The notes beneath the pieces are model-generated. The model had not been told where the DNA came from. It was given only the letters and a program-made list of their open reading frames with translations, and ran no database searches. The translations under genes were made by a program, and so were the position numbers. A DNA stretch of 55,641 bases. It comes from Pseudomonadota bacterium. GTDB taxonomy: Bacteria; Desulfobacterota; Desulfobulbia; Desulfobulbales; SURF-16. The DNA is taken from the NCBI GenBank assembly GCA_018897105.1, contig JAHILF010000047.1, forward strand, positions 1-55,641, given 5' to 3'. Of this stretch, positions 2,805 through 46,180 are shown one piece after another; positions within the stretch are counted from its first letter, which is position 1, and each line of letters begins with the position of its first letter.

Positions 2805-3602
2805 TTAGAACAGGCTGACCAGCATGCGGGTACCGACGATGTAAAGCAGGACGGCAAAAATGCGTTTCAGCCGTCCCACCGGCAGGCTGTGGGCCAGCCG
2901 CACGCCAAGGGGTGCGGTGAGGACACTGGTGACGATGAGTCCTGCCAGGGCGGGCAGATAGACATAGCCCAGCGAATATTGAGGGAGATTGGCGGTTTGC
3001 AGCCCGTTATAAATGTATCCGGCCGTGCCGGCGATGGCAATGGGAAAGCCGATGGCAGCCGAGGTGCCGATGGCCTCATGCACCGCAATATTGCACCAAG
3101 TCATAAAGGGCACGGACAGGGTGCCGCCGCCGATGCCGACCATGCTGGAGAATGCGCCGATCACATTGCCCACGCCGAACATGCCCATTGGGCCGGGAAG
3201 CTGGCGGGAGGGTTTTGGCTTTTTGTTGAGCAGCATCCGGCTGGCCACATAAAAGAGAAAGATGACGAAAAAAACCTTGAGGAAGTTGGTGGACATGCGG
3301 GCCGCAAAGCAGGAACCGATAAATGTTCCCAGAAAGATGCCGAGCACGATGCGGCGCACCACGATCCAGTGCACTGCCCCCCTTTTGTGGTGGGCCCAGA
3401 AACTTGATACCGCGGTGAAGATGATGCTGGCCATGGAGGTTCCCAGGGCCAGATGCATGATGAGTTCATTGGGGATCTGCTGCCAGGTAAAGCAAAATAC
3501 CAGCATGGGGACGATGACCAGTCCGCCGCCGATGCCGAGCAGTCCGGCAAGGACTCCGGAAACCGCGCCGACCAGCGAGTAGGTGAGAAGGATGGTAATC
3601 AT
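2805..3602 (-). CDS. TauE/SafE family permease
   Basis: 265 residues, the usual length of a complete eight-helix TauE/SafE (TSUP) protein. Both repeat motifs are visible: GLLGIGGGLVIVPMLVF near residue 21 and SSMVGIGGGTLSVPFMTW near residue 152. The family exports sulfite, sulfoacetate or other organic sulfur anions, but the substrate here is unknown. The start has GGAGG six bases upstream of ATG. The upstream intergenic region holds a palindromic REP element. It is transcribed toward the binding-protein gene and could share its transcript. Confidence 0.88.
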   Translation of the reverse strand: MITILLTYSLVGAVSGVLAGLLGIGGGLVIVPMLVFCFTWQQIPNELIMHLALGTSMASIIFTAVSSFWAHHKRGAVHWIVVRRIVLGIFLGTFIGSCFAARMSTNFLKVFFVIFLFYVASRMLLNKKPKPSRQLPGPMGMFGVGNVIGAFSSMVGIGGGTLSVPFMTWCNIAVHEAIGTSAAIGFPIAIAGTAGYIYNGLQTANLPQYSLGYVYLPALAGLIVTSVLTAPLGVRLAHSLPVGRLKRIFAVLLYIVGTRMLVSLF

Positions 3603-3646
3603 GAAGTTCCTCCAAGGGTTAATTCAATGTCGTTAACTATAAGGCC

Positions 3647-3758
3647 GGGAGACAGATTTTATTTTTCCTCCGGACCGAGGGGACTGAATTTTTTTCGCGG
3701 GTTTGGCGAAAATCATTCTGTCCCCAGCTTTGGAAAAGGAAAAATAAAATCTGTCTCC
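3647..3758. repeat. GGGACAGA-type composite palindrome, copy A
   Basis: Outer arms GGGAGACAGATTTTATTTTT and its counterpart AAAATAAAATCTGTCTCC enclose a second inverted pair (GGGGACTGAATTTTTTTCGC / GCGAAAATCATTCTGTCCCC). Related elements lie at 32548, 36015, 44803, 52841 and 53527. The last two flank RAYT and toxin-antitoxin genes. Such pairs of inverted REPs are the typical substrate of REP-associated tyrosine transposases. Confidence 0.75.
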
Positions 3759-3835
3759 TCTGCCACTCACTTTTAACTTAATGATATTGGCGGATAATTT
3801 TTTAAAAAATAGGATTTGAGCCTTTACCTATATTT

Positions 3836-4534
3836 TCATGCATCGCCGTAAACGGTCTGTTTCACCTTCTGCAGGTGGTTCTGCATGGCCCGGCAGGCAG
3901 CGTCCTCATCGTGTTTTTCCAGGGAATTGATGATGTCGATATGGGACCTGACCGAGGCCGTGCGTCGGGCCTCGCTCTGGAGAAACTCGGAGCGGGTCTC
4001 AAGCAGAATGGAGTTAAGCAGTTTGACCACCTCAAGCAGGACCATGTTCCTCGCTGCCTCGGCCAGAAGGAGATGAAACTCCATATCCAGTTCAGCCATG
4101 TCTTCTTCAGCAAAGTTTTTTCGCTCCTGCTCAAAGACCAGGATCTTGAGGCGGGATAATTCATCCGGGGTGATATGGCGGGCGGCGAGTGCGGCGATCT
4201 GCGGCTCGATTATCTGTCTGAATTCGAATATATCGCGCAGGCGGTTCTGCTGCACCTGGATGGCCTGGGCCAGGGACGACACCAGGGCCGAATCGTCCGG
4301 GCTGCAGATATAGGTGCCGTCTCCCCGCCTGCTTTCCAGCAATTTTTTTTCGGTCAGAGCCCGGAGCGCCTCCCGGACGCAGTTCCTGCTGACCTTGAAG
4401 GTCTGGGCAAGAGTCCGCTCTGGCGGCAGCCTGTCGCCGGCCTTCAGCTCGCCCCGGAGGATGAGCTGCTGGATCTGTTCCACGATCTCTTCGTACAGGC
4501 GTTTTCCCTGGTCAGGAGTGGTTTCTTTCTTCAT
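3836..4534 (-). CDS. FadR-subfamily GntR transcriptional regulator
   Basis: 232 residues. The N-terminal winged helix (residues about 8-75) includes LKAGDRLPPERTLAQTFKVS and RNCVREALRALTEKKLLESR, diagnostic of GntR. The all-helical FCD effector domain follows (residues about 95-225), with the metal-ligand type segments DMEFHLLLAEAA and RSHIDIINSLEKHD, as in LldR/PdhR relatives. Effectors of this class are usually organic acids. It stands alone. Its promoter carries two TGGTACTACCA-type operators, so it is probably autoregulated. Confidence 0.92.
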   Translation of the reverse strand: MKKETTPDQGKRLYEEIVEQIQQLILRGELKAGDRLPPERTLAQTFKVSRNCVREALRALTEKKLLESRRGDGTYICSPDDSALVSSLAQAIQVQQNRLRDIFEFRQIIEPQIAALAARHITPDELSRLKILVFEQERKNFAEEDMAELDMEFHLLLAEAARNMVLLEVVKLLNSILLETRSEFLQSEARRTASVRSHIDIINSLEKHDEDAACRAMQNHLQKVKQTVYGDA

Positions 4535-39027: not shown

Positions 39028-39309
39028 ATCGTTGCTCCATTGAAATGCTGATCACTTATTTATACAAATAGGTGCCAATGGTGATAATGTCAAGCAAAGG
39101 CAGGGAACGTACTGGGTTTCCCTTGCAAAAATCGGATGCCATGTTTTTTAAGGCACCCAAGCCTTAGCCTGTTCGGGTTCTTTTTTTCTTACATTTTATA
39201 ACTTATCCGCTATAATTATAAGTGACATTTTTTTCTGCGTATAATATAAAACTATCCGTTTTTTCACTATTTTTGTATTACATTTTTCGTGACATTTAAG
39301 GCGGCAATT

Positions 39310-40431
39310 GTGAAAAGCGTTTTAACATTTAAATCAGGAAAGTTTTATTTCAGCGAAGAGTATGATGTTTCTCAAATTGACAGTCTATTGGTTCGCGCCA
39401 CCGTGCTCAATGAAACCATTGTCGACCTGCCGATACTGCCAGAATTGGCCTCGCAGATCGATCCGGACATAATGTACAGCTCTATTTCCGGCACGGCCGC
39501 AATTGAGGGCAATCCTATAACCGGTGAGGATGTCAAAAGGATTGCCCAGGGCGAGGAGTTGCAGATTTACAGCAAAAAGGATCAACAGGAAATCAAGAAC
39601 CTGATTAATGCCTACGATATTCTAGCCGGGTTTAAGCCGACTGCCGATCCTCTTATTATAGACGAAGGAATCATTTGTACACTTCACGAAGCCATAACCC
39701 ACGATCTGCCTGATGAAAATAATGTGCCCGGAAAATACAGAAATGGACTTGTGTATGTCGGGGACAAGGCCCATGGCGGTGTGTACACACCGCCGAAGAT
39801 TCTGAAAGATATTCAAAATCTGATGCAGGAGTTTGTGGAGTGGATTAACAGTGAGGAAATACTCAGTCTTAATCCCTTTGTAAGAGCAGCACTTGCTCAT
39901 TACTATCTCGGTATTATCCATCCCTTCTGGGATGGCAACGGCAGAACAGCCAGACTGCTGGAAGCCCTTCTGCTGCAGGGGGCAAATATCAAATACGTCC
40001 CACGCGAGCTCTCCAATTATTATTACCGGAATGTCGATGAGTACTACATTTCCTTCTCCAAAAGCCTCCAGCTCAAAAAGGAGATCACCCCGTTTCTGAG
40101 ATTTTATCTGGAAGGTGCTGTCGACAGTCTTACTAGGATGAAAGAGGTGATTGTATCCTTTATCAGGAAATTTTCCCTCAGGGATTATTATAGATCGGAA
40201 AGGAAAACAAAAAAACTTACGGCAAGGCAATTTGAGCTGCTGGATTTACTTTTGGATAATCCCGTCACCTTTACCCTTAAGGATCTGCACGACAGCAAGA
40301 CATTTTCAATTTTATACGGCAAGGCTTCAACCCAGACGGCACGGCGTGATTTGAAAAAACTTGCAGCCCAAGGACTTCTCCTGGGTGATGAAAACAATAA
40401 ATATACCCTTAATTTCAGAGTGCTGGGGTGA
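39310..40431 (+). CDS. Fic domain adenylyltransferase-like protein
   Basis: 373 residues from GTG 39310, preceded by AAGGCGG; GTG 39289 is possible and adds seven residues. The catalytic motif HPFWDGNGRTAR (His at about 204) is complete. The inhibitory helix motif S-G-x-x-x-I-E-G-N (SGTAAIEGN) lies upstream, the class II arrangement. A C-terminal winged-helix follows (RQFELLDLLLDNPVTFTLKD, TARRDLKKLAAQGLL). It probably AMPylates a protein target and is autoinhibited. No Fic antitoxin partner gene is present, as expected for class II. Confidence 0.9.
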   Translation: MKSVLTFKSGKFYFSEEYDVSQIDSLLVRATVLNETIVDLPILPELASQIDPDIMYSSISGTAAIEGNPITGEDVKRIAQGEELQIYSKKDQQEIKNLINAYDILAGFKPTADPLIIDEGIICTLHEAITHDLPDENNVPGKYRNGLVYVGDKAHGGVYTPPKILKDIQNLMQEFVEWINSEEILSLNPFVRAALAHYYLGIIHPFWDGNGRTARLLEALLLQGANIKYVPRELSNYYYRNVDEYYISFSKSLQLKKEITPFLRFYLEGAVDSLTRMKEVIVSFIRKFSLRDYYRSERKTKKLTARQFELLDLLLDNPVTFTLKDLHDSKTFSILYGKASTQTARRDLKKLAAQGLLLGDENNKYTLNFRVLG

Positions 40432-41207
40432 TTCAAGCATTTGTGGGAATAATTAGGTAAGATGTCCCCAGAACTCTTCAGAAGAGACATAATAAATCTT
40501 ATTTTTCAAGACCTGGCCCTGATTCGCGTGGCCCTGATTCGCGCACGGCCTTATCGGGCAAGGCTTTTGGCGCGCCCCTCACCCAAGTCGAACCCCGCAG
40601 TGAAAGATCGAGTTAGGCGCAATTTTCGAGCGAAAACCGGCGCGTTAGCGCAAAAAGGAAACCGTTTTTCTTTCCGTTAACGGTTTGTTGTTTTTAATGC
40701 AATGGATTTCCTTGTTACTGAAGTAATTTTTACAAAAAAGTGTAGTAATATGCAGAAAATAGGCGCACTTCTCCTATAAAATTGCCTATGATCACAATAT
40801 TCGGTTGGATCATGCAATATCAAATGGTTACGCTTGTTACTTATGCTATACTTCATCAAAATTCTAAGGACTCACGATCAAAGGTGAATAATGCCAACAA
40901 GATGTTTTCTGCCGTAACCATATGAAATATAAAGGTTTAAATTGTTTGCGCCCAATGTGCCGCTTAGTGGGCTTGCCTGGGCAAATAAGTCAACTCTTGA
41001 TAAAGTATTGCACAGATCAATTAATATCAGCGCAGCATGCAATACTTTATCATTGAGGTTGCCATTCCGGCGAAATCCTTGTCACACCAGAGAACTTTAA
41101 AGAAAAATACAAATGATTATTCGCGAAGTACGTAACCATTTTTGTTAAATCCAACCGGCTTTTGTGGCAATAGAAAATTGCATTTTTTTTGCTGAAAAGA
41201 GGACCAG
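40432..41207. other. long intergenic region beside the recombinase locus
   Basis: No gene is seen in these 776 bases. CCTGATTCGCG(T/C) is directly repeated at about 40508-40545. The main structure is the inverted repeat at 40998-41052. GTTAGGC at about 40613 has no partner of attC type. The base composition is more AT-rich near the recombinases. Confidence 0.5.
40998..41052. repeat. 15-bp perfect inverted repeat downstream of the recombinase genes
   Basis: TGATAAAGTATTGCA (40998-41012) and TGCAATACTTTATCA (41038-41052) are perfect complements with a 25-base spacer. It lies 155 bases beyond the recombinase stop. It could be a recombination-site or end motif of the element, or a transcription terminator. 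No second copy was found on the other side. Confidence 0.6.
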
Positions 41208-43094
41208 TTACTCTTTCTGCGATCTGGCACCCTGAAATCGTAAATTTAAAATACCCTGTTCGATGAGTTCATTCATGAAGATCACGGCCGGAAGTTTCTC
41301 CATAGCTTTTCTAATTTTTTGCTGGGAAGGATGGATGTAGGATTCCGTGCTTTTCGGGGTCGCATGCCCCATCAGGCTCTGGATTACCAGGATGTCTACT
41401 TCCTTCTCGTTGAGATGGAAAGCGAAGGTATGCCTCAAAGTGTGACAGACAACAGGAAAAGATGCTCCGAAATCAGCACGGGCAAGAATTTTCTTAAAAT
41501 TGTCCTCCATGGTCCGGATCGCCAGCCGATTGCCCTTTTTCGAGACGAACAAGGCTTCCGAACCGGCATGGTTATGAAAGGCTGTCCGGACATTGAGATA
41601 TTCGACCAGAATCTGCAGGAGTTCGTCATGGAGATAGAGATCTCTGACCCTGTTTCCTTTGCCCATTACCATAAGGGACCGCCTGTCAAGATCAATGCTG
41701 CCGAGATCAAGCCGATGCACCTCTCCGACCCTGAGTCCGGCAAGATACATCAGGCCGTACACGGCATAATCCCGGATTCCGAGAGCGGTTGTTCGGTCAA
41801 TGACGGCAAAGAGACGTCGAACCTGCTGATTGGTAAGTGCCTGAGGGCGGTTCTTGTAACCTCCGCGGATTTTCAAGATGCTGTCAAAAGGCAGACTGTC
41901 AGCGGCCTCGACATCTAATAGACGAAGATGCTGGGCATATCTTTTGAGGGTAAATATTTTGCGGTTGATGGATCCACCGCTATTGTTGCGTTCTAGCTTG
42001 AGGAAATACTGAAAATATATGACCGCCGGCCCGTCAATGACGGAGTAATTCCCATTGTTGACAAAGTCTTTGAACAGTTGCAGGTCGATCTGGTTTGACT
42101 TGATCGTCTGGTCGCTGGCCTCGTAAATGTTTTTGCGGTAGTCAAAGAAGGTGTCGACGTGGCCGAAGAAATCGTCAATTGCTACTGCCATGAAGTCACC
42201 TCCGGAGAGGACGACTTTGGCCAGGGCCTCTCTCTTCATCTGGTCCGTGATATGGACGTAGAGAGCGGTTTCCTCTTTTTTTTCATGGCCCATCATGGCC
42301 TGGATAGCGGAATACGGAACACCCTGGCGGTACATTTCGGTGGCAAAAGAATGGCGGAGAATATGCGGAGTAACGACCGAGGAAATTTCTGCTTTGCGCA
42401 CATATTCCTGCATCAGCTTCTGGACCCGGTTGTTTGAGATGGCTTTGTCCTGGCTTACCGGGAATAAAGGCTTCTCCTGGCCTCCAGGAGATTGAGGATC
42501 AGCGAGATAGTCCCGGAATTCGTCGTAGAGGACATCGACCACAAAAAGGGCGCGCTGCTTTTTGTTTTTACCTCGCACCCTCAGGAGCCCGATTCTCTCC
42601 CCGGCAACATGCTCCGGCTCAAAGTTTTTTACCTGAAGTCCGGTCAGTTCACTGATTCGCAGGCCGAGACACCAGAGGATTGCAAACATCAGATGGTTGC
42701 GCTTTCCGTACCAGTTTGAGCGATCCACTGCAGCGAGCAACTTGAGAGCCTCATTGGCGGAAATCGGCTGTATTTTTTTACATTTCTTTTTTTTCAGGTA
42801 CGGCAAGGCCTCGGCGGGGTTTTTCTTGATAACGCCGAGTTTGCCGAGAAAGGCGAAGAAGCTTTTCAGGGCGTACTGATGTTGCCGCAAACGGCTGCGG
42901 CTGATGGTGGGGCTGAGAGTTTTCAGCCAGTCCTGGAGGTGTTTTCCCCTGGAGTTCATTGGGTCGATAAGACAGGAATTTTCGGCAAAATTGCAGAAAG
43001 AAACAATGCTTGACGAATAAGTGTCCACCGTACTCGTGGCAAATCCGGCGACCTCAAGAAGTTCCTTTTTGTATCGGACAATGAAATTTTTCAT
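41208..43094 (-). CDS. double tyrosine recombinase (two complete integrase modules fused)
   Basis: 628 residues with two full phage-integrase modules. Module 1: SAM-like core-binding domain (about 1-100), then R146 (CLGLRISEL), K176, H244-x2-R247 (HILRHSFA), H270 and Y279 (ETALYVHI). Module 2 (about 310-628): R455 (AGLRVGEVH), K479, H551-x2-R554 (HTLRHTFA), H577 and Y586 (TESYIHPS). Both active sites look intact. The ATG overlaps the upstream recombinase stop (ATGA) and GGGAGG precedes it. Three recombinase modules in two coupled genes recall RIT (recombinase-in-trio) elements, here with RitB and RitC apparently fused. TnpB of Tn554 is of similar length but has one module. Confidence 0.85.
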   Translation of the reverse strand: MKNFIVRYKKELLEVAGFATSTVDTYSSSIVSFCNFAENSCLIDPMNSRGKHLQDWLKTLSPTISRSRLRQHQYALKSFFAFLGKLGVIKKNPAEALPYLKKKKCKKIQPISANEALKLLAAVDRSNWYGKRNHLMFAILWCLGLRISELTGLQVKNFEPEHVAGERIGLLRVRGKNKKQRALFVVDVLYDEFRDYLADPQSPGGQEKPLFPVSQDKAISNNRVQKLMQEYVRKAEISSVVTPHILRHSFATEMYRQGVPYSAIQAMMGHEKKEETALYVHITDQMKREALAKVVLSGGDFMAVAIDDFFGHVDTFFDYRKNIYEASDQTIKSNQIDLQLFKDFVNNGNYSVIDGPAVIYFQYFLKLERNNSGGSINRKIFTLKRYAQHLRLLDVEAADSLPFDSILKIRGGYKNRPQALTNQQVRRLFAVIDRTTALGIRDYAVYGLMYLAGLRVGEVHRLDLGSIDLDRRSLMVMGKGNRVRDLYLHDELLQILVEYLNVRTAFHNHAGSEALFVSKKGNRLAIRTMEDNFKKILARADFGASFPVVCHTLRHTFAFHLNEKEVDILVIQSLMGHATPKSTESYIHPSQQKIRKAMEKLPAVIFMNELIEQGILNLRFQGARSQKE

Positions 43095-43969
43095 GGCTGC
43101 ACCTCCCGCATAAAGGGATGACGCTGCATATAGACCGCATATTGATCCGGATTGAGGTGGGCGTACTTCAGGGTGTTGTGGCGCCGCTCATGGCCGAGCA
43201 CAGCCTGAGTGATAGTAGTTCCGGCGACCTTGTTGAGATGGGTGGCTGCCGTATGCCGGAAAAGTCGGGCATGGAGGCATTTATCTATGCCGAGGCTGTC
43301 TGCCGCAGTTCGAAAGATATCCTGCAGGTTTCGCGGCGAAATGCGTTTTTTGCGAGTGGAGAGGAAGAGAGGGCCATTAGCAAGGTGAAGCCGGTCAATA
43401 TAGATTTCGAGAAGATCTGTCAGCAGTTCCGGGAGAACGATTTGCCGTTGCCGTCGTCCTTTCTCCTTGATCCATGCAAGACCGGCCTCATAGTCAATAT
43501 GTTCGACGTCAAGGGCGATAAGTGTCCCTGTCCGCAGTCCCAGAAGGCCGAGCATGAGAATCATGACAAGGTTTCTGAGCCCATTGGTCGAATCGGCCTT
43601 GCGCCAGAAAAACTTTATGAGGCGGTTGAATTCCTCAATGGTCAGGAAATAGGGAACGGTTTTTTCAATCTTCGGGTAAGGGAGTCCGAGGGCAATATTG
43701 TCTTTGACATGCCCGGTTACGGTAAGGAAGTGGAAAAACTGGTGCAGGCACCAGACCCGTGCCTTCTTTTTGTGAATGGACGGCTCGTTGAAATCGGCAA
43801 CAAAATCGGAAAGATGCCCATATGTGATGTCCGCCGGGGAATCGATCCGCATCGAAGCGGCATAGGCGGTGAATTCCCGGAGGCTTGTGGCAAGAGATTC
43901 AATTGATTTAGCTGAGAAATCGGCAACTTTACAATAGGCAAGAAAATCGGTAGTGTACTTTTTGAGCAT
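43091..43969 (-). CDS. tyrosine recombinase, first of the trio
   Basis: 292 residues. The N-terminal SAM-like domain is followed by a catalytic domain with R146 (LLGLRTGTL), K170, box II, H260 (GHERRHNTLKYAHL) and Y269. In box II the usual His of HxLRH is Arg (R235-L-F-R238-H239), a substitution seen in some XerC/D-like divergent members. AAGGAGG precedes the ATG. It overlaps the fused double recombinase by four bases. It would act together with it in strand exchange. Confidence 0.88.
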   Translation of the reverse strand: MLKKYTTDFLAYCKVADFSAKSIESLATSLREFTAYAASMRIDSPADITYGHLSDFVADFNEPSIHKKKARVWCLHQFFHFLTVTGHVKDNIALGLPYPKIEKTVPYFLTIEEFNRLIKFFWRKADSTNGLRNLVMILMLGLLGLRTGTLIALDVEHIDYEAGLAWIKEKGRRQRQIVLPELLTDLLEIYIDRLHLANGPLFLSTRKKRISPRNLQDIFRTAADSLGIDKCLHARLFRHTAATHLNKVAGTTITQAVLGHERRHNTLKYAHLNPDQYAVYMQRHPFMREVQP

Positions 43970-44085
43970 AGGGGGACCCTCCTTTTAAAACGTGGTGGTA
44001 TTATTAAAGGGTTTCCTTATGCTCTTCTTTGGAAATAATCAACCTCAATGCCGCTTATCAGGGCTCACTGCGAGGTTTATGGGTT

Positions 44086-44697
44086 ATGCTTAGAAAATCA
44101 GATGATCAATCTATGACAGAAACTACGAAAGTAGATAAGATTCTTTTTAAACTTAAAAATAATCGATTTGTATCTGTTATTGTTGTTATTGCCATAATTT
44201 TTCTTGCAATAATTTCGCTTGCTGAAGGTGTGCAGAAAGCTGGGAAGCTATTTGGAAGCACTTTTGCAAAGGAACAATCCTCAATAAATTTTGATAAAGA
44301 AACTTTAGATTCATTTGTAAAGATAGTCCGTAATATAGATTTGTTTCTATTGAAACTTGAGCTGAGTAAAAATGAAGTGTTAACTTTAGAGCAAGAATTT
44401 GATCTTTATGTCACAATTCAAGCAGATTTAAATAGTTGGGCACTTCGTAATACATTAAGTTCGCTAAATGACATCTCTGTGAAGAATTCGCAACTAATGG
44501 CGCAACAATGGGAAGACTTAGGATTACTTTTAAAGAATGGAGCTAATAGAAAAGTAATATCAAGTGCCTCAAAGGCAATTCAAATGTCAATGAATTCCAT
44601 ACTTATTTATGGAGTTTATATATTGAATTCAGGTAACCGATCACAGGGTAGCGGTCAGGCAATAACAGTGAGGCAGCAAGAAATTACAGAGCAGTAA
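44086..44697 (+). CDS. unknown membrane protein
   Basis: 203 residues from the ATG at 44086 (a TTG at 44029 is possible). One clear helix (FVSVIVVIAIIFLAIISLAEGV) near residue 30-50 is followed by a helical, polar domain with no recognised motif. Base use is strikingly AT-rich compared with the flanking genes, which suggests recent transfer. It lies divergently next to the recombinase locus and may be cargo of that element. Function unknown. Confidence 0.6.
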   Translation: MLRKSDDQSMTETTKVDKILFKLKNNRFVSVIVVIAIIFLAIISLAEGVQKAGKLFGSTFAKEQSSINFDKETLDSFVKIVRNIDLFLLKLELSKNEVLTLEQEFDLYVTIQADLNSWALRNTLSSLNDISVKNSQLMAQQWEDLGLLLKNGANRKVISSASKAIQMSMNSILIYGVYILNSGNRSQGSGQAITVRQQEITEQ

Positions 44698-45215
44698 TCC
44701 AAGAGATGTCCGGGGCATGACCGCGAAAATGGGCGGTCAGGGCATCGACGAGGATTGGGAAGGTTGGCTTGTTGTGGAGGCGGCAGGTTTGCCTGGAAAA
44801 AAGGGGACAGATTTAATTTTTCTTTTCCCTATCAAGACAATACCGATGAGAAACGTTGAAAAATAAATCTGTCCCCCTTCCCCAGATTGTCAATTTGGGA
44901 ACGCCAAACATTATTCTTCTGATTCTGCTCATTTGCTAATTAATAGCAATTACTGGCATTATTTTTAATTATAGATTTATGCGTATCAAAGAAGTTCAGA
45001 CCGTTTTCTATAGTGCTTATAAGAATTGTAAAAACTTCCCACAATGCAATAAAGCAAGCATTGACAAAAAAGAACATACCCACAACAATTAAATTCAGGC
45101 GACAGGAAGAGGCTTGGGGCTCTGACGAGGTAAGTCTTTTGACCCGCGTCTAATTTCTGTCGTTCGGGAGTCGTGTTGCAAATGAATGATATTTTAAAGG
45201 AATCGAAGTGGGGGA
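44698..45215. other. intergenic region with REP copy D
   Basis: Apart from the REP element at 44803-44876 no gene is seen. On the minus strand at about 44700-44795 there is a short open stretch (NKPTFPILVDALTAHFRGHA) that looks like the end of a protein, but I do not recognise it. Confidence 0.4.
44803..44876. repeat. GGGGACAGATTTA inverted pair, copy D
   Basis: GGGGACAGATTTAATTTTTC at the left and GAAAAATAAATCTGTCCCC at the right are inverted copies with about 35 bases between them. This is the same end sequence as beside the RAYT gene at 53527. Confidence 0.75.
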
Positions 45216-45857
45216 ATGAATATTAAGACCATGCAAGATTGGATCGAATACTACATGCCCGACTGGCGGCAGCGGTGTTGTGAATTGCAATCTGCCTGTA
45301 AACGGAGGTTGCGTAACATCAAGCTCCATATCATCAAGCTCTTTACCTATTATCTGGCCGCAGTACTCTGCTTCATGCTCGTATTTGGCATGGCGAACTA
45401 CTTCTGGTTTACTTTCCGGCACACCCCGGTTGGAAGTATGTTTCTTGACAGCAACCCGCCGGAAGCCCTTTTGGCCTTCTTCACCGCTACCAATAGCAAT
45501 CTGGTCACCCTGGCCTTCCGGCTCAATATCGATTCGGCCGTTACATGCCTCCTGCTTGGGCTAGTCTGTCAGCTGTTCGCCATCACTCGCTATCTCTATA
45601 CCGGCCGCGGGCTGATAAACCGCCTGCTCTGGTATGCCTTTTGCGCCGCCATAACCAGCTTGGATATCCTTCAGACAGGACAGCAGTTTGACTTTACAAC
45701 CAGCTTTGTCCTATATCTTCTTCCAGCGAGTTGCCTTGCCGGTGTTTGCCTTGAATTTACCTCCCTCCTGCTCCCTGAGATCTGGATAGTGTTCAGGCTA
45801 AAGGAGTTACGGCAAGTTGTCAAGATAGCCAGAATTCGCAATAATCAGCGTAAGTGA
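45216..45857 (+). CDS. unknown polytopic membrane protein
   Basis: 213 residues. Helices are predicted at about 38-60 (LFTYYLAAVLCFMLVFGMANYF), 105-125 (AVTCLLLGLVCQLFAI), 135-150 and 160-188 (FVLYLLPASCLAGVCLEFTS). N- and C-termini are basic and arginine-rich. No motif is recognised. It follows the AT-rich protein in the same direction but has the GC content of the host chromosome. Confidence 0.6.
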   Translation: MNIKTMQDWIEYYMPDWRQRCCELQSACKRRLRNIKLHIIKLFTYYLAAVLCFMLVFGMANYFWFTFRHTPVGSMFLDSNPPEALLAFFTATNSNLVTLAFRLNIDSAVTCLLLGLVCQLFAITRYLYTGRGLINRLLWYAFCAAITSLDILQTGQQFDFTTSFVLYLLPASCLAGVCLEFTSLLLPEIWIVFRLKELRQVVKIARIRNNQRK

Positions 45858-45992
45858 ACAAGGTTAAAGCCCTGAGTTTTTTGGTCCCTCTTCGCGCACC
45901 AAAGGGTCTTGAAATATGAGTTTTGTCAACCCTGAGTCTCCGAATTCACAATTCAAGATTTGTTCTTATCCTTCTCAAGCGTAATGCATCCT

Positions 45993-46064
45993 GCCGGAGC
46001 GGGCCTTGCCCGCGATAACGGAGTTTTGGCAATGCCAAAGGTCGCGGGCAAGGCCCGCTCCGGC
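45993..46064. repeat. GGAGCGGGC hairpin repeat, second complete copy
   Basis: The left arm 45993-46015 (GCCGGAGCGGGCCTTG then CCCGCGA) is perfectly complementary to 46042-46064. The loop has TTTTGGCAATGCCAAA, a nested hairpin. Relative to the copy at 24481, each arm differs at the same base pairs and stays paired. Confidence 0.8.
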
Positions 46065-46180
46065 GCGAACTTTCATACATTGTTGTTCCCGCTTGCGGAG
46101 ATGGCGGTTAGCTGACAGTTATTTTGGCGGGTAAGCACAGATTACTGACCACAAAAATGGGGGACTGTGACAAAATATAT

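Follow-up and report, generated by a model that had tools for sequence, protein, structure and literature searches.

A member of a mobile three-recombinase element family with two of its recombinases in a single reading frame

The recombinase trio of the window

The window considered here, that is, the whole 55,641-nucleotide stretch of DNA that was analysed, carries on its minus strand two open reading frames that together encode three tyrosine recombinases (Pfam recognizes all three genes as recombinases), in the order A, then a fused B-C, within an element whose left end is at 44086 and whose right end is at 40589 (Table 1). A first-pass annotation made from the letters of the sequence had reported these frames and their coupling, and they are real: A and B-C overlap by ATGA. 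In the 628-residue product of the second frame, a Pfam search finds PF00589 in two separate stretches, and with the NCBIfam models the best stretch is 8-289 for XerC and 315-600 for XerD. The same annotation had read two full sets of catalytic residues in this protein, and alignment with four Xer proteins bears this out: R146/K176/H244/R247/H270/Y279 in the B module and R455/K479/H551/R554/H577/Y586 in the C module (R151/K175/H247/R250/H273/Y282 when numbered from residue 305). Aligned in the same way, A has R146/K170/R235/R238/H260/Y269, with arginine at the position of the usual box II histidine. This arginine had been singled out earlier and is indeed present, without being exceptional: it occupies the position in 10 of 14 A rows and in 7 of 14 B rows of the family alignment. 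A 'broken' box II in A is ruled out, arginine being the majority state of A; it is a family trait.

Table 1. Features of the element and of its genes, in window coordinates
Feature	Position	Strand	Basis
Whole element, 3,498 bp	40589..44086		Flank comparison among copies
Left end, TAACCCATAAACCTCGCAGT	44067..44086	-	17 left ends aligned; homology of the identical G669 copies begins here
Right end, first box, CGAACCCCGCAGT	40589..40601	+	21 right ends aligned; homology of the identical G669 copies stops here
Right end, second box, GTTAGGCGCAATT	40612..40624	+	10 nt from first box
Nested insertion, about 400 bp, MITE-like, imperfect 31-nt inverted repeats	40780..41180 (edges approximate)		Inverted repeat; alignment with three other copies
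Gene A, tyrosine recombinase, 292 aa	43091..43969	-	ORF, Pfam, residue alignment
Fused gene B-C, 628 aa, two complete tyrosine recombinases	41208..43094	-	ORF, Pfam, NCBIfam
B module, residues 1-301	42192..43094	-	Aligns with separate B gene of relatives
C module from Met302, 327 aa	41208..42191	-	Aligns with separate C gene of relatives
B/C junction, GGAGGTGACTTCATGGCAGTAG	42182..42203	-	Kept Shine-Dalgarno; kept C ATG at 42191-42189

Ends, movement and surroundings of the element

The conserved left end of the family reads TAACCCATAAACCYCGCAGT, and its right end, in reverse complement, consists of CGAACCCCGCAGT, 10 nt and then GTTAGGCGCAATT. The first right box is inverted relative to the left end, the two sharing the inverted end box AACCYCGCAGT. 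The 12-base core of the second right box is found at the same place in all 21 right ends, with at most two mismatches in 20 of them and four in the last (L090). On the left, 9 of 17 copies have a similar box, again with at most two mismatches, that follows the first without a gap, at a distance about 12 bp shorter than on the right; at the window's own left end no good match to a second box was found.

Movement can be read in a complete genome (G669), where two 3,090-bp copies are 100% identical, lie between unlike flanks and lose their homology at the ends, a third copy being diverged and broken. Two identical copies in different flanks imply that the family moves, and the conserved ends, together with the limits of homology of these copies, define the extent of the window element given in Table 1. 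The comparison of flanks across genomes, which the first-pass annotation had proposed as a way of locating the ends, has thus located them, and its proposal of a recombinase trio on a mobile element finds support in the relatives, in the ends and in the identical copies. Within the genus of G669, partial matches stop no more than 3 bp from the same points in G660, G842, G923, G957, G652 and, for one match, G817; those of G964 and another of G817 extend 25-37 bp past the ends. Eleven other full-length copies measure 3,075-3,182 bp.

Tyrosine recombinases generally bind DNA arms and exchange strands through a Holliday junction, with no duplication of the target, and the end boxes of the family are about the size of Xer arms. 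The inverted end boxes, some 11 bp long like the arms of Xer sites, may be the arms to which the recombinases bind; these would pair the two ends of the element, and tyrosine-linked strand exchange via a Holliday junction would then move it, leaving no target duplication. Inspection by eye of the two identical G669 copies showed no such duplication. Neither excision nor transposition of the window copy itself was seen. Targeting of hairpins or terminators was considered and set aside as a lead: strong hairpins occur in some right flanks, many flanks have none, and the strongest come from related hosts; the mean z of flank hairpins is about -0.9 in 19 right flanks vs about -0.1 in 15 left flanks, relative to letter shuffles that do not keep dinucleotides. 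The motif GTTAGGC may resemble the core of an integron attC site.

Between the two identical trio copies of G669 lies a reverse-transcriptase element of about 1.9 kb (L084, 6820-8754), of which the same genome holds at least 15 further near-identical copies; judged by its YADD motif alone, it is probably a group II intron.

The length of the window element, 3,498 bp, set beside the range of the eleven other copies, is the length basis for recognizing a nested insertion in it. This insertion follows C, short of the right end, and leaves genes and end boxes untouched; it has inner hairpins, and a 78-bp piece of it matches G000:C28:15629-15706 at 76%. The element as a whole sits in an AT-rich segment. 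A search of six genomes of the genus found a region of about 7 kb (approximately 39133-46177) to be variable, its two sides being about 94 bp apart in G004 and its outer flanks being separated by about 2.2 kb of other DNA in G002. These flanks place a Fic gene, membrane ORFs and the element all within the variable region; an empty site of the element itself was not found among the six genomes. The Fic-domain protein (PF02661, 39289-40431) is encoded just past the right end and has about 73% DNA identity in G005, where the Fic gene is all that is present of the variable segment.

The membrane protein next to the trio had been suggested as cargo. Its frame (44029-44697) extends back to a TTG that falls within the left end, but the ATG codons at which it could start are at 44086 or further out, which places the ORF outside the element, and the suggestion had to be abandoned. 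No neighbour could be established as cargo carried by the element. Repeats at 44633-44795 and 45978-46142, the second of which contains a perfect 23-bp inverted repeat, recur in the window's genome and its congeners, with copy numbers from several to many.

Relatives of the trio and other recombinase systems

A pattern-based scan, which detects close relatives only, covered one genome for each species and yielded eight loci, seven of which encode the trio wholly or in part, far beyond chance. Six of these come from Desulfobacterota MAGs and one from an Elusimicrobia MAG; the eighth (L016), a single recombinase at 28% identity, was for these reasons dropped from the comparisons. In overlapping sets of genomes searched with strict cut-offs, the trio was present in 2 of 395 genomes of the phylum and 3 of 257 of the order (both counts including the window's own genome), in 16 of 389 genomes of the class of G127 and 15 of 389 of its order, and in 4 of 86 of the family of G669. 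Some of these searches scored three or four candidates per genome, so that copy numbers are lower bounds, and loci taken to lie on the same contig as a named locus were counted once. No second copy of the trio was found in the window's own genome, a draft of 177 contigs. No relatives were found in viral contigs, and plasmid and phage collections gave distant recombinases alone, at no more than 32% identity among the matches listed (30, 15 and 12 rows).

In the relatives the trio consists of three genes, A, B and C, with B and C mostly overlapping. The two halves of the 628-residue protein match two different genes of these relatives, at 46-56% identity for B and 56-68% for C (38% and 51% in the Elusimicrobia copy, L015), and it is on this point that the earlier view of the protein as a B-C fusion holds. 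The grounds on which the annotation would have given the fusion up, relatives with a single module or two halves that match the same gene, do not apply. The closest known C genes are those of L036, the sister of the window copy (68%), and of G447, where C lies at a contig edge (71%). The annotation had also proposed searching for the fused protein in other genomes: no second fused copy appeared among the matches listed, nor any uninterrupted frame spanning both modules, the long row of G801 having two internal stops.

A more distant trio of the same layout, encoding proteins of 293, 305 and about 350 aa, occurs at 174-2969 of L146 (G1015:C882); its identity to A, B and C is 23-38%, and its B and C frames are separate. 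L089 (G712) holds, at 2884-4270, a derivative of 1,387 bp that retains both ends of the element and has one ORF, of 355 aa; this ORF aligns to A and to C alike over the greater part of its sequence (46-60%) and looks like an A/C chimera.

The trio had been likened to RIT elements. According to the available text of the reports, these consist of three adjacent overlapping tyrosine recombinase genes, RitA, RitB and RitC (PMC3414803, PMC2864759, PMC8138268), and the sharing of four strand cuts by three recombinases has been called hard to understand for them (PMC3414803). As far as those parts describe them, the family is like them in its three adjacent genes with their overlaps (the window copy departs from this, two of the three being fused), the ATGA overlap, its inverted end sequences, its several copies per genome and its length, the roughly 3,500 bp of RIT elements being matched by the eleven full-length copies and by the window element. 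This part of the likeness stands; it does not extend to the proteins one by one. RitA is described with two core-binding domains (PMC8138268), whereas A has one, and A is 291-313 aa long in 14 rows vs 400-420 aa for four RitA rows, a fifth RitA being annotated at 325 aa. For RIT, 34-bp terminal inverted repeats are described (PMC10214605); the family end is an 11-bp inverted core with a second box at a different spacing on each side, which does not make a continuous 34-bp repeat. In a model of C folded separately, a predicted helix at 298-308 follows that at 287-294 (pLDDT about 72-77), and this extra C-terminal helix may resemble the additional one described for RitC (PMC8138268).

A tree built from 59 proteins gave separate clades for A, B and C, each with support 100/100; the B clade joins RitA (94/83), not RitB, and A and C join no Rit clade. 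Profile scores of B follow the same direction (RitA 218, RitC 173, RitB 134), yet A, B and C all score highest with the Xer profile, and there is no one-to-one pairing with the Rit proteins. The Rit set comprised 5, 5 and 4-5 rows, from pHG1 and others, with long branches for which the tree tool gave a warning, so that this result is moderate evidence for a lineage outside RIT, and the grouping of B with RitA means that the separation is not clean for B. The tree omitted the partial or broken L009, A, B and C of L012, L076, L077, L085 and L087-L091, took A and B only from L086 and left out the B of L036 because of its stop; the RitC of L122 (254 aa) was kept out of the profile test.

We can accordingly ask whether the element is a canonical RIT whose divergence hides the orthology of its genes. 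The type of gene order, the overlaps, the size of some 3.1-3.5 kb, the end repeats, the possibly RitC-like helix of C and the affinity of B for RitA all speak for this, but the missing second core-binding domain of A, the failure of A and C to pair with any Rit, the pairing of B with RitA and not with RitB, and the preference of all three for Xer, moderate evidence in view of the Rit set, make it unlikely. The element, while built like a RIT, probably represents a separate lineage of trio elements, as the sequence comparisons would have it, and this suggests that such elements arose in more than one lineage.

A RIT-type trio, with its first gene broken, was met at 2340-5838 of L012, with identical 20-bp palindromes TTATGGGGAGCTCCCCATAA on both sides and a RitC-like protein 47% identical to that of pHG1. 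It occupies the place of the front of a family gene A, of which the last part alone remains, and the palindromes that flank it differ from the end sequences of the family.

Further systems invite comparison. GInt (ginABCD), as described in the available text of its report, also has three tyrosine recombinase genes in one operon, with a fourth gene, ginD, that is essential for recombination, and with variable cargo, whereas at L084 206 nt separate the stop of C from the end of the element; the first catalytic arginine, which is described there as missing in GinC, is present in A, B and C (PMC5385486). Tn554-type elements have TnpA, TnpB and TnpC, the last of which is not a recombinase; in the present family all three genes encode recombinases. 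Of the groups tested, the Xer proteins (XerC, XerD, XerA) give each of A, B and C its best profile match and have the same two-domain build; unlike them, the trio resides on a mobile element, three per element, with 20-28% identity to Xer in the profile alignments.

The B/C junction and the meaning of the fusion

The frame of C relative to B was measured in 20 rows, and the window is the sole copy in which the two are in frame. At all 17 measurable junctions outside the window (16 distinct, two copies being identical), C lies in the -1 frame, separate from B. The stop of B is there at or before the start of the aligned part of C, typically inside ATGGCAGTAG or a variant of it: it precedes the reference point by 2 nt in 14 rows, by 8 in two and by 17 in one. 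The two rows that gave no measure are L076, with a broken B whose stop is 60 nt upstream, and L085, which is without B. In the window the junction reads, in order, GGAGG-TGACTTC-ATGGCAGTAG; the letters TAG of the ancestral B stop persist at 42184-42182, out of frame, and the spacer after the Shine-Dalgarno sequence is 7 nt, compared with 6 in L036, which is the nearest of the relatives whose junction can be read, and 5 in many further copies. Since the frames are out of step at 17 of 17 junctions elsewhere, and since the Shine-Dalgarno sequence, the ATG of C and the stop letters of B are preserved here, the fusion can be ascribed to a net change of one base near the junction, by which the stop of B left its frame and the 628-aa frame was opened. 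The first-pass annotation, which supposed that the fusion would fix the stoichiometry of two modules in one synapse, had noticed neither this internal start with its Shine-Dalgarno sequence nor the ends of the element. Preservation of the internal start further suggests that free C accompanies B-C; C is probably still initiated from its own start in the window copy, and a cell with this copy would make A, the B-C chain and some free C.

A single base may also be an error of the contig, in which case B and C would be separate overlapping genes in the window as they are elsewhere. That the fusion is seen once only, in a draft genome, that the 17 other junctions are unfused and that the unused TAG is still in place would all agree with an error of sequencing or assembly; against it, long homopolymers are absent from the junction and the window holds long open frames, up to 1,109 aa, which would be consistent with sound sequence. 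We regard such an error as rather unlikely.

If the base is real, the fusion would be, so far, private to the window copy. A close relative of that copy is lacking, and for this reason the age of the frame change is not measurable. For each of A, B and C, every comparison showed more changes at third codon positions than at second ones; fourfold sites were too diverged to yield rate ratios. Relaxed evolution of B was considered: B is the more divergent in most comparisons, some of them without the window too, and there is no clear signal specific to the window.

The copy might also be decaying, an inactive element of which the fusion was the first lesion. It is the single copy in its genome and has received a nested insertion, and broken members of the family exist elsewhere (L009, L036, whose B has a stop at codon 26, L076, L077 and L085). 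On the other side, the frames of its three modules run through uninterrupted, the active sites are in place, neither end is missing, and the nested insertion has spared the genes and the end boxes. This is a serious possibility, which we nevertheless incline to doubt.

The reading that we prefer, and hold to be fairly probable without great assurance, is that of a compact mobile three-recombinase element, RIT-like but separate, in which the fusion is a one-base accident, recent and nearly neutral. For the fusion itself, the most likely account, as far as the letters of the sequence allow, would be such an accident in one resident copy, and not a new enzyme established by selection; its recency and neutrality are inferred, for want of the close relative just mentioned.

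An enzyme kept by selection would be one in which the linkage of B to C holds two different recombinases on one site. Both modules are complete, and RecF8, an engineered heterodimer in which two Cre-type monomers are linked, is described as active and more specific in the available part of its report (PMC8776779). RecF8 and B-C are alike in holding two different tyrosine recombinase monomers in one chain, but RecF8 was designed, with linkers of 24 residues (PMC8776779), whereas B-C is natural and, unlike RecF8, retains the internal start of its second module. A model of the whole fusion, with an alignment behind the B half only and low confidence in the C half, predicts helices at 284-293 and 302-311, with some 8 residues between them, where confidence is low as well. 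This short predicted connection, the retained start of C and the single occurrence of the fusion all count against a selected single-chain enzyme, which we find very unlikely; selection for natural B-C linkage is unsupported.

One may go further and imagine a natural single-chain heterodimer that keeps B and C on the two arms of a single recombination site; free C would come from the internal start, and the proportion of B-C to C in a synapse of three enzymes would be set by one gene. Its trio lineage, separate from RIT, would have related binding boxes at the two ends, with spacings that differ by about one helical turn. This is a long shot. A literature search found no description of fused or tandem tyrosine recombinases, a 2013 RIT paper in Plasmid being outside its scope.

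What is solid is the element family; the joined enzyme may be useful, a first stage of decay or a slip of sequencing. The family is a small, sharply bounded and recently mobile system with exact ends, in which each of A, B and C can be examined for its role in turn, and the window copy offers a ready-made version with B and C linked, which limits the arrangements that are possible. A fold search made with the model of the fusion returned Xer, integron, lambda and Cre structures.
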